Below, piece after piece: positions 13,631 through 46,370 of a stretch of DNA of 46,395 nucleotides (its first letter is position 1; each line of letters opens with the position of its first letter). The stretch comes from Thiotrichales bacterium. Lineage in GTDB: Bacteria; Pseudomonadota; Gammaproteobacteria; Thiomicrospirales; Thiomicrospiraceae. The translations under genes and the position numbers were made by a program. The notes under the pieces were generated by a model. It searched no databases. It saw only the letters and a program-made list of their open reading frames with translations, and was not told where the DNA came from. The DNA is taken from contig JAFGXP010000015.1 in NCBI GenBank assembly GCA_016936535.1, positions 1 to 46,395 on the forward strand. Reading direction: 5' to 3'.

Positions 13631-13693
13631 TTATCCACAGGGCCATTCCACAACTTATCCACAAAAATTATGCTTGAGTTAGGGTTATTCACA
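13631..13693 (+). repeat. Cluster of three DnaA boxes
   Basis: Two perfect boxes (13631-13639, 13655-13663) and one with a single change, TTATTCACA (13685-13693). The starts are 24 and 30 bases apart. They are adjacent to an A-rich stretch, typical of an origin and also of dnaA autoregulation. Confidence 0.8.
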
Positions 13694-13815: not shown

Positions 13816-15192
13816 TTGTCTTCACTTTGGGCTCAAAGTCTTAAAATTCTTGAAGATGATCTTAACGATCAACAGTTCCATACGTGGATTTTACCGCTGC
13901 GCGCGATTGAAGAGAGCGATACCATTCGTCTCATTGCGCCCTCAAGCTTTATTCTCGACTGGGTCAACAAGCGCTTAATGGAAAATGTTCGCCAAGCCGT
14001 CAGCCGCGTTGCGCCAATCAACACCCCGCAGGTGGTGATTGAAATGGGCGATTATTCAATGAATGAATTTGAAGCCGACGACCAGCCAACCATTCCACAA
14101 CCCTTGAAAAGCCATCAAGAAAAAGCCAAGCCGGCTGCAACCAAAACCGATAGCGGCAAAGCCAAGATTCAAAACAATCTCAACAGCAACTTTACCTTTA
14201 ATACTTTTGTACAAGGTAAGGCCAATCAACTCGCGGCAGCGGCGGCTCGACAAGTCGCCGAAAATCCGGGCGGTAGCTATAACCCATTTTTTATTTATGG
14301 TGGCGTGGGACTGGGAAAAACACACTTAATGCATGCCATTGGCAATCAATTGCTGGCCGATAATCCGGATGCTCGAGTGGTCTATTTACATTCTGAGCGT
14401 TTCGTACAAGATATGGTCAATGCACTTCGCCATAATAAAATTGATGACTTTAAACGCTTTTACCGCTCTTTGGATGCACTGCTGATTGACGATATTCAGT
14501 TTTTTGCCAATAAAGAACAATCGCAGGAAGAGTTCTTTCACACCTTCAACACACTGCTCGAAGGCAATAAACAGGTCATTTTGACTTCAGATCGTTTTCC
14601 TAAAGAGGTGGATGGCCTAGAAGACCGCCTAAAATCCCGTTTTGGTTGGGGCTTGACCATTGCGGTCGAACCACCCGAATTTGAGATGCGAGTCGCGATT
14701 TTGTTGCGCAAAGCCTCAGAATACAACATTGCACTGAGTGAAGAAGTCGCCTTTTTTATTGCCAAACGCTTGCGCGGCAATGTTCGAGATTTGGAAGGTG
14801 CGCTAAAACGCGTCGATGCTTATGCGCAATTCAGTAATCGCCGCGCGATTACGGTAGAAACCGTTAAAGAAGCACTTAAAGATTTGCTGGCGCTGCAACA
14901 AAAAATGGTCACACTGGACAATATCCAAAAGACCGTAGCCGATTTTTACAAAATTCGCGTTGCAGATCTTCATTCACCTCGTCGTTCGCGCAATGTTGCA
15001 CGGCCTCGGCAAATTGCCATGGCTATTGCCAAGGAGCTGACCAACCACAGTCTGCCAGAAATTGGCGATGCGTTTGGCGGCCGCGACCATACTACCGTGC
15101 TGCACGCTGTGCGCAAGGTTAAAGCATTACGCGAAACCGAACATCAACTCGATGACGACTACAACAGCTTAGTGCGCATTATCACCAACTAG
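13816..15192 (+). CDS. dnaA: Chromosomal replication initiator DnaA
   Basis: The 458-residue AAA+ initiator that binds DnaA boxes and opens oriC. Domain I (about 1-80, interaction with DnaB/DiaA-like partners) and a Lys/Ala/Pro-rich linker (about 85-125) precede the AAA+ core with Walker [10 protein letters not shown] (162-170) and Walker [11 protein letters not shown]-terminal domain IV ends with the DnaA-box-binding signature [15 protein letters not shown]. The start codon is TTG, preceded by AAGGA; no ATG lies at a suitable place. It leads the dnaA-dnaN block, and its promoter contains a DnaA box. Confidence 0.98.
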
Positions 15193-44357: not shown

Positions 44358-44957
44358 CTAGTCTAACCAGACGCTAACCGATTCTAAGGGCTTACGCTTC
44401 GCGCTTTGATTATTGCAGTCGCCTTGCACATATCCCATGTATAGAGCCCCTATTAACTCGATACGCTCAGGCGATTGCTCAAGCAGGTCGTAGGTAGCTT
44501 GCGCTTGCAAAATGGGTCCAGTGCTCCACTGCACGCCAATCCCCTGTTGCCACGCCATCAATTGTAAATTTTGAATGCCACAAGCACAGGCCGCATAATC
44601 TTCTTTACGAATCACCGCATCGTCACTCAAGACTTGACCCACCAAAACAATCTGCGGAATCTGCAAAAACTTCTCAACAGCAGAAGTGTAGTGAAGTCGA
44701 TAGGCTTCACTATCGACTTCAGCACGACTCCCAGCTCTCAATGCTGCATAGGTGCTGGCTAAAACCGCTTGGCTCTGAGAGCCTAAAACCCAAAAGCGCC
44801 ATGGCTGTGTTAATTTATGATTTGGAGCCCACAGCGCGGCTTCTAAACACGTTTTAAGCGTATTCGTCTGCAAAGGTGCACTTTGTTTATCTTTAAAAAG
44901 GTAGCAACTACGTCTTTGCTGAATTAATTGCGCTAAATCTTCTGTTCTAAGCGTCAT
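44358..44957 (-). CDS. Nitroreductase family protein
   Basis: A 199-residue FMN-dependent oxidoreductase of the nitroreductase family, resembling YdjA. The FMN-binding N-terminus reads LIQQRRSCYLFKD, then APNHKLTQPWRFWVL, and CACGIQNLQLMAWQQGIGVQWSTG in the second half (motif NLQLMAWQQGIGVQW). Substrate is unknown. It converges on the small gene at 44004, with a 12-base gap. Confidence 0.92.
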   Translation of the reverse strand: MTLRTEDLAQLIQQRRSCYLFKDKQSAPLQTNTLKTCLEAALWAPNHKLTQPWRFWVLGSQSQAVLASTYAALRAGSRAEVDSEAYRLHYTSAVEKFLQIPQIVLVGQVLSDDAVIRKEDYAACACGIQNLQLMAWQQGIGVQWSTGPILQAQATYDLLEQSPERIELIGALYMGYVQGDCNNQSAKRKPLESVSVWLD

Positions 44958-45103
44958 CTTCTCTCCTTGTTTTACGGTGCACCATTCTAGTAAAAAGCCA
45001 ATAAAGTAACAGTGCTAAGCGTTTTTTAAACCAGCATAAATGCAAAAAAATCGCTTTCCAAGTATGATGGGCGGGCAAAACTGCGCTTTATGCCGTCAAC
45101 CCT

Positions 45104-45214
45104 TTGGATAAAATGTGTCTTATTGTGGATAAATACAGGTTTTTAGAAAACTGGTATTTTTATCCACAAAACACTCACTTTTACCCACAGCAGTTGTCTA
45201 GAGGTCTATGCACA
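45104..45214. repeat. DnaA box cluster
   Basis: Two perfect 9-mers (45124-45132 minus, 45160-45168 plus), one box with a single change (TTACCCACA, 45181-45189) and two weaker sites (45104-45112 minus, 45206-45214 plus) fall within 111 bases. Both strands are used, unlike the cluster before dnaA. Confidence 0.65.
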
Positions 45215-45232
45215 GCTTGCCCACTGGCTATC

Positions 45233-45324
45233 TAGTTGATTTTTTTAGTAATTTAATTTTTATCAACTAAAATTCTCTTACTAAGAGAAAAGATAATAAG
45301 GAATATATATTCCTTTTATCTTTT
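45233..45324. repeat. Three consecutive AT-rich inverted repeats
   Basis: TAGTTGAT ... ATCAACTA (45233-45240 and 45262-45269, AT-only loop almost throughout); TTCTCTT-ACT-AAGAGAA (45273-45289); and a 37-base near-perfect palindrome (45288-45324) with one bulged base, centred on the perfect GGAATATATATTCC (45300-45313). They occupy over 90 bases with no gap of note. Confidence 0.75.
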
Positions 45325-45443
45325 AATAACCCAGCGAAAATCTGCGAATAAATCGAATTGCTATTTATTCAGCCAGTTTTAATGGTAATGAGAACTTTTC
45401 TCAAAGATAATGCTACAGAACCAAAAAGGTACCGTTTAGTCTC

Positions 45444-46370
45444 ATGACACTTAGTGAATTGAAATACGTCATTGCTGTTGCCAAAGAAAAACACTTTCGC
45501 AAAGCATCGGAAACCTGTTTTGTCAGTCAACCGACTCTGAGCGTTGCCGTTAAGAAGCTTGAGGAAGAGCTCGGTGTCATTTTGTTTGAAAGACGTAAGC
45601 AAGATGTGATTGTGACGCCAGTCGGTAAAAAGATTATTGAACTGGCCGAAGAAATTCTAGAACGGACGCAAGACATCAAAACTATTGCTCAAGAAGCACA
45701 AGGCGATCTTTCTACACAATTGAAAATTGGTGCCATCTATACCGTTGCGCCCTATCTGTTGCCTAAGTTCATTCCAGAATTCAGTAAACGCTTTCCAAAT
45801 ATTCCGCTACTGATCGAAGAAAACTACACACACGTTTTAGCCGATAAGTTGCAATCTGGTGATTTGGACATTGCTATTCTCTCCTTGCCTTTCCAAGAGC
45901 CAAATATCGAAACCCTACCGCTCTATCAAGAACCTTTTAAGGTCATTTTGCCCAACTCTCACAAGTTGGCATTAAAAGAAGGCAAAATTTCTTTAAACCA
46001 AATTCAAAATGAAACCGTATTGTTGTTAGGAGCAGGTCATTGCTTTCGAGACCAAGTCGTAGAGACCTACCCAAATTTGCTGCATATGAGTCATCAAAGT
46101 GATCGTTTGCAAAAAACATTTGAAGGCAGTTCACTGGAAACCATTCGCTATATGGTGGCTTCTGGTGCAGGAATCTCGATTTTTCCGTGCACATCACTTT
46201 CGAAACGCGATGAAAACTTATTTCAAATTCGCGAATTGATTCAAAAAGATCAAGCCAATCGCACAATCGCCTTGGCCTGGCGTAAAACGTTTCCTCGCAC
46301 CCAAGTTTTGGAAGTGTTTCGCAGAGTGATTAAAGACATTAATCTGCCTTGCACGATTCCAATCGAGTAA
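45444..46370 (+). CDS. OxyR-like LysR regulator lacking the usual second cysteine
   Basis: A 308-residue LysR-type regulator. An N-terminal winged helix (1-60: KHFRKASETCFVSQPTLSVAVKKLEEELG) precedes a linker helix and effector domain. The motif GAGHCFRDQ (Cys200) matches the peroxide-sensing cysteine of OxyR, and SSLETIRYMVASGAGISIFP is also OxyR-like. The partner cysteine, expected about eight residues on (E. coli Cys208), is missing: the sequence there is VVETYP. Other cysteines are at 25, 249 and 303. It is not divergent from a catalase or ahpC gene in this window. Confidence 0.85.
   Translation: MTLSELKYVIAVAKEKHFRKASETCFVSQPTLSVAVKKLEEELGVILFERRKQDVIVTPVGKKIIELAEEILERTQDIKTIAQEAQGDLSTQLKIGAIYTVAPYLLPKFIPEFSKRFPNIPLLIEENYTHVLADKLQSGDLDIAILSLPFQEPNIETLPLYQEPFKVILPNSHKLALKEGKISLNQIQNETVLLLGAGHCFRDQVVETYPNLLHMSHQSDRLQKTFEGSSLETIRYMVASGAGISIFPCTSLSKRDENLFQIRELIQKDQANRTIALAWRKTFPRTQVLEVFRRVIKDINLPCTIPIE

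Follow-up and report, generated by a model that had tools for sequence, protein, structure and literature searches.

What is the role of a cluster of DnaA boxes, bordered by AT-rich inverted repeats, that lies 30 kb from dnaA in the gap between a nitroreductase-family and a LysR-family gene? The original prediction left four answers side by side: the true origin, a DnaA-titration site like datA, a DnaA-reactivating site, or a regulator of the oxyR-like gene. We analysed the cluster within a window of 46,395 nucleotides, which is the whole contig and ends 25 bp past the LysR-family gene, and in the genomes of relatives. The conserved block that holds the boxes is almost certainly the chromosomal replication origin (oriC). 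We take this identity as decided because a model trained on the block finds sites beside dnaA in other Gammaproteobacteria, and because the switch of GC skew falls at this locus.

Layout of the box cluster

The cluster occupies an intergenic gap of 486 bp between the two genes, which are divergent. Its features in the window are as follows.

44358..44957, minus strand: nitroreductase-family gene (Pfam PF00881)
45098..45325, plus strand: oriC core, the whole conserved block of about 228 bp in the 24-row genus alignment; it matches model R1 (see below) with 138.7 bits and E 1.7e-40, the alignment behind R1 itself including the window sequence
45103..45111, minus strand: DnaA box TTATCCAAA, one mismatch; most rows of the genus alignment have GGATAA or a similar sequence
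45124..45132, minus strand: perfect DnaA box TTATCCACA; TGTGGATAA in 24/24 genus rows
45160..45168, plus strand: perfect DnaA box TTATCCACA, convergent with the box at 45124..45132; TTATCCMCA in 24/24 genus rows
45181..45189, plus strand: DnaA box TTACCCACA, one mismatch, from the pattern scan and the genus alignment
45206..45214, plus strand: DnaA box CTATGCACA, one mismatch, weakly conserved in relatives
45229..45241, plus strand: IHF-site-like motif TATCTAGTTGATT, one mismatch to the IHF consensus
45260..45268, plus strand: weak box TTATCAACT, two mismatches in the window, beside the putative unwinding region; placed by the aligned genus columns
45281..45301, plus strand: TAA-rich, DnaA-trio-like stretch, the putative start of unwinding; TAA-rich columns kept in the genus and class alignments
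45288..45324, no strand: AT-rich near-perfect palindrome, putatively within the unwinding region; the palindromic form is not conserved
45444..46370, plus strand: LysR-family gene, OxyR-like, below the curated cut-off for OxyR

A scan with the pattern TTWTNCACA, allowing at most one mismatch, bears out the five DnaA-like sites, two of them perfect, that had been described within 111 bases; the first is the sole exception, its start lying one base before the one given. A second site at 45179 overlaps the box at 45181-45189. The three inverted repeats said to follow the boxes can likewise all be read in the sequence, as TAGTTGAT...ATCAACTA, as TCTCTTA-C-TAAGAGA and as the 37-base palindrome, which is indeed present at 45288-45324, made imperfect by one extra base around an 18-base perfect centre, AAGGAATATATATTCCTT; a gap-free repeat search did not list the three as such. 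The flanking LysR protein can be named no further than oxyR-like, because its top score, to OxyR, is 221 bits and falls below the curated cut-off of 329 bits.

How much weight can the number of boxes bear? Dinucleotide shuffling of the whole window gave at least five sites within 111 bp in 6 of 100 trials; shuffling of the 486-bp intergenic region alone gave none in 2000. When 160-240 kb were scanned in each of 11 relatives, the best 200-bp box window lay at the LysR locus, or tied with it, in six, and at an array upstream of dnaA, or tied with it, in nine. Box counting was therefore dropped as stand-alone evidence, both since the array equals or exceeds the LysR locus in 9/11 relatives and since 6/100 window shuffles reach five sites. 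The count alone is marginal at the scale of the window; conservation and GC skew decide.

A third box cluster proved to be located upstream of an rRNA operon. Its boxes are at 76-117 of the window; in G019 they are found about 15.2 kb before dnaA (L139), where a 16S gene on the minus strand adjoins. Another contig of the same assembly, C26, carries TTATCCACA at 97-105, the same position as in the window contig (C32), which suggests a second copy of the rRNA operon with the same flank.

Conservation within the genus and the order

The named relatives of its LysR protein place the window's genome, that of a sulfur bacterium, in Thiomicrorhabdus. The genus set comprised 24 Thiomicrorhabdus genomes, including the window's own, with a LysR orthologue of 60-100% identity that no contig end cuts off upstream. 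The block, with its arrangement of clustered DnaA boxes as in an oriC, is conserved in all 24 of these untruncated loci, and one more locus is divided between two contigs (G013). In every one of the 24 the gap holds TGTGGATAA, then 25-29 bp, then TTATCCMCA. The alignment spans 236 columns at 72% mean identity, and largely conserved in it are the boxes, a TAA-N4-TTGA motif, TTATCNACA, and a tail that is TAA-rich and contains TATATA. The weak-box slot (45260-45268) is within one mismatch of TTATCCACA in 21 of 24 rows. Thus the boxes are kept in relatives, and the palindrome itself is not: its centre GAATATATATTC is found in the closest relatives only, over 12 bases in L010 and 14 in L011 and L012, and in most other rows the palindromes are shorter, different or made of A/T only. 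We have therefore rejected the palindrome as a functional element. The AT-rich region beside the boxes that an oriC requires for unwinding is nevertheless present by sequence, its TAA-rich and TATATA columns being conserved in the genus and the class.

From the genus alignment we built a sequence-only model, R1, and searched it in 62 genomes of the order. At E<=1e-4 it matches 52 of them, with one dominant site each, the exceptions being overlapping opposite-strand matches and the split locus of G013. At E<=0.01 it matches 56 of 62, two of which (G006 and G029) are discounted as weak matches without LysR or nitroreductase neighbours; they are counted in the 56 and fall outside the 52. Seven Thiomicrorhabdus drafts (G002, G006, G010, G011, G016, G028 and G029; 79-94% complete) yielded no close LysR orthologue, neighbouring nitroreductase gene or convincing origin block; these drafts could share an assembly gap or form a subclade with its origin elsewhere.

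In relatives the strand switch lies at the LysR locus

For GC skew we analysed the 160-240 kb surrounding dnaA in 11 relatives with complete or near-complete genomes; ten of these assemblies consist of a single contig and one (G018) of two. In all 11 the change point is nearer to the LysR locus than to dnaA, and in all 11 the likelihood of the switch is higher at LysR than at dnaA, so that the block takes the position of an oriC at the transition between leading and lagging strand. The change point falls 0-11 kb from the LysR locus, the distance between dnaA and that locus being 28-82 kb; it misses the locus by most in G009 (10.7 kb) and G035 (7.6 kb), and in the latter dnaA lies on the other side of the LysR locus. 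In G023 the skew was sampled around the chromosome and is positive in 9/9 samples at 0.20-1.35 Mb and negative in 9/9 at 1.48-2.63 Mb; the local switch is thus the chromosome-wide one. The window itself shows one side only, the switch being seen in the relatives, and its cumulative skew falls past dnaA to the contig end, as it should to the left of an origin at about 45 kb. The GC-skew mapping proposed with the original prediction hence comes out in favour of its origin reading, with the switch at the LysR locus and not at dnaA.

The placement of parS-like sites, searched with the parS consensus at no more than two mismatches, points the same way: 53 of 54 in ten genomes lie on the LysR side of dnaA, where a longer stretch was sampled, and for this reason we treat it as supporting evidence only. 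In the eleventh genome, G035, both sites lie between dnaA and LysR.

Related sites beside dnaA in other Gammaproteobacteria

To what is the block related outside the order? R1, trained on the genus block only, was searched in a class sample of 274 genomes, with eight candidates scored per genome and a threshold of E<=1e-3. It matches 83 genomes, 80 of them outside the order; in the other 191 none of the eight candidates scored per genome gave a match. dnaA was found in 78 of the 80. In placing the matches, secondary and opposite-strand matches in a genome were left out, except in G308. Of the 80 matches, 57 are found no more than 400 bp 3' of dnaA, 55 of these 57 in the same orientation, and eight no more than 1.5 kb 5' of dnaA in the opposite orientation; the remaining 15 are farther off on the same contig (seven), on another contig (six) or in genomes without dnaA (two). 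The similarity to origin sites of related bacteria that is expected of an oriC is hence found, and mostly just 3' of dnaA. We take these dnaA-side matches in other orders to be followed by dnaN. The gap between dnaA and dnaN is the classic origin site. More generally, oriC is described as usually flanked by dnaA and sometimes by dnaN (PMC4285127).

In seven genomes outside the order (G302, G262, G212, G046, G133, G132 and G175) the listed match lies 2-37 kb from dnaA; these may be independent relocations, or chance among the weaker matches.

The dnaA region and other functions of the block

Does replication start at dnaA after all? Two features of the window bear on this.

13631..13693, plus strand: direct DnaA-box array upstream of dnaA, separate from the block and conserved; not the origin on our main reading
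13816..15192, plus strand: dnaA, 30 kb from the block and 18 bp from dnaN

An origin at dnaA, served by this array, would make the LysR-side cluster a datA-like site of DnaA titration or inactivation, and we hold this to be very improbable. The box starts of the array are 24 and 30 bp apart in the window, relatives often have one extra box between the first two, and at least two perfect same-strand boxes stand upstream of dnaA in 19/19 genus loci examined (19 of 30 dnaA loci). By box score it equals or exceeds the LysR cluster in nine of 11 relatives, and datA, like the block, combines boxes with an IHF site (PMC10380432). However, the likelihood of the skew switch is higher at LysR in every one of the 11, R1 detects sites immediately 3' of dnaA outside the order and yet matches the window's own dnaA-upstream array at best with E 0.34, and the gap between dnaA and dnaN, only 10-60 bp wide in 11/11 relatives, cannot hold the block. 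A datA-like site, by its nature away from the origin and serving to promote the hydrolysis of DnaA-ATP, predicts neither the skew switch, with which the block coincides, nor the likeness to dnaA-side sites, so that this option fits less well. The array itself is likely to serve the autoregulation of dnaA or another control by DnaA. In G031 (C4:367385-368753) the dnaA match is split into two neighbouring pieces, through a frameshift or an error in sequencing.

Could the block instead be a DnaA-dependent promoter or operator, of the oxyR-like gene or of the nitroreductase gene? Among the loci examined in other genera of the order, the block stands directly upstream of LysR in 22/22 and beside the nitroreductase gene in 19/22. 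The sister genus g2, however, keeps it beside the nitroreductase gene with another ORF in the place of LysR: in G059 a weak R1 match lies between the nitroreductase gene and a 306-aa ORF unrelated to LysR (at L285, 2283 onward), in G032 a strong one is flanked by the nitroreductase gene and by a similar ORF, of which the contig end leaves only the start (counterpart at L279, contig start), and in G058 a weak one lies beside the nitroreductase gene; G060 gave no R1 match, and a search for LysR in the g2 loci gave no match better than E 3. The block is thus present beyond the company of the LysR gene. A survey of the DNA upstream of LysR relatives covered 33 of 63 loci, 15 of the 33 from the order; in all 18 from outside it there is at most one box in up to 450 bp. 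The same module, moreover, sits beside dnaA in other orders. Regulation of the oxyR-like gene as the block's function can therefore be given hardly any credence, and the block may have a secondary effect on the promoters of LysR or the nitroreductase gene.

A DnaA-reactivating (DARS-like) site, a kind defined by a core of three DnaA boxes that regenerates ATP-DnaA, would suit the several DnaA boxes and the IHF-like site but is just as far-fetched, for it predicts no skew switch, no AT-rich flank of TAA repeats and no likeness to sites 3' of dnaA, and this option too explains less than an origin does.

A proposed relocation of the origin and its proposed mechanism

The oriC reading, for which the strand switch in 11/11 relatives, the conservation of the block and its likeness to sites 3' of dnaA speak together, is thus the one of the originally proposed options that we retain. 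Since most of the class matches sit 3' of dnaA and the gap between dnaA and dnaN is closed in the order, the block reads as a gammaproteobacterial oriC of the ordinary type at a derived position. Here, replication could proceed along the DnaA/IHF pathway (PMC10380432, PMC8287927). DnaA would fill the boxes of the block, and IHF would bend the DNA at the IHF-like site. From the weak box at 45260-45268, DnaA would then spread onto the TAA-rich stretch at 45281-45301, the AT-rich DNA would open towards the LysR gene, up to about 45325, and helicase would be loaded for replication in both directions.

As to how the origin came to this place, we envisage an ancestral origin between dnaA and dnaN which, in an ancestor of the order, would have been transferred to the gap between the nitroreductase and LysR genes, after which dnaA and dnaN would have closed up. 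Movement of the origin, or its duplication with loss of the old copy, is a better guess than a simple inversion, which, taking place between dnaA and the origin behind it, would split dnaA from dnaN. We give even chances to a scenario in which oriC is a movable module that was copied or moved once into the gap, leaving dnaA-dnaN intact and the box array behind as a separate control site. In G308, R1 matches at C1:3396303-3396495 and at 3407954-3408152, one just 3' of dnaA and the other about 10 kb away; this genome could represent a two-copy stage of the same relocation process elsewhere.

That an oriC can lie away from dnaA is well known (PMC4285127); what is interesting here is the proposed relocation across a whole order. 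In titles and the opening parts of abstracts our literature search met no paper that locates the origin in this group, for which DoriC or BOriS may hold predictions, and in the part of the T. cyclicum genome paper available to us we found no statement on the origin's position. The main contig is numbered from dnaA in 9/11 relatives, with the apparent start of replication 28-82 kb distant. The order offers a clean comparison for asking what parts an origin from the gene of its initiator. Moreover, with an oriC alignable over 230 bp, the model extends to further orders of the Gammaproteobacteria and can be applied to draft contigs on which skew is unusable.

Comparison with known systems

How does the block compare with characterized origins? 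The E. coli oriC is also apart from dnaA (PMC8287927). The segment that we compared (NC_000913.3:3925744-3925975, L232) is neighboured by mnmG and mioC and gave no match to R1 at E<=0.5. In it the E. coli DnaA box called R1, TTATCCACA, is followed 13 bp later by CTAATAAGA; similarly, in L015, TTATCTACA is followed after 12 bp by CTAATAAGA. The E. coli origin carries GATC, whereas this motif is absent from the core in the window and from 23/24 Thiomicrorhabdus cores, and for this reason the core is unlikely to be subject to sequestration by SeqA and Dam of the E. coli kind.

The IHF consensus is given as TAAnnnnTTGATW, and IBS1 sits among the left DnaA boxes of the E. coli oriC (PMC10380432). 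The IHF-like motif of the block, which is the TAA-N4-TTGA of the genus alignment and lies between the weak box and the stronger boxes, recalls IBS1. At this one slot the consensus is exact in nine of the 24 genus rows and within one mismatch in 19, against at most three of 24 at other slots; the motif test is not a sharp one, as the IHF site of the E. coli oriC itself gave no consensus match within one mismatch.

Towards the unwinding region, the TAA-rich stretch of the window resembles TAAGAGATCA, the Enterobacteriaceae form of the DnaA-trio motif TAATAATAA that gammaBOriS learned from gammaproteobacterial origins (PMC7174414). The Bacillus-type basal unwinding system likewise consists of a box, a short spacer and an AT stretch of repeated, trinucleotide-like units (PMC8287927). 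Its strict rule asks for three or more NAN trios no farther than 16 bp from a box (PMC8287927); the window has a run of four, but across the genus only 11 of the 24 rows show such trios, against 6.1 expected by composition, and in this the block differs from that system.

The dnaA-side sites of other orders (G192, G185, G116, G292 and others), finally, align with the block over nearly the whole of R1, and common to both are the convergent boxes, TAA-N4-TTGA, TTATCCACA, a TAATAATAA-like stretch and TATATA. The difference is one of place: these sites lie less than 400 bp from dnaA, whereas the block in the window lies 30 kb off, between the nitroreductase and LysR genes.
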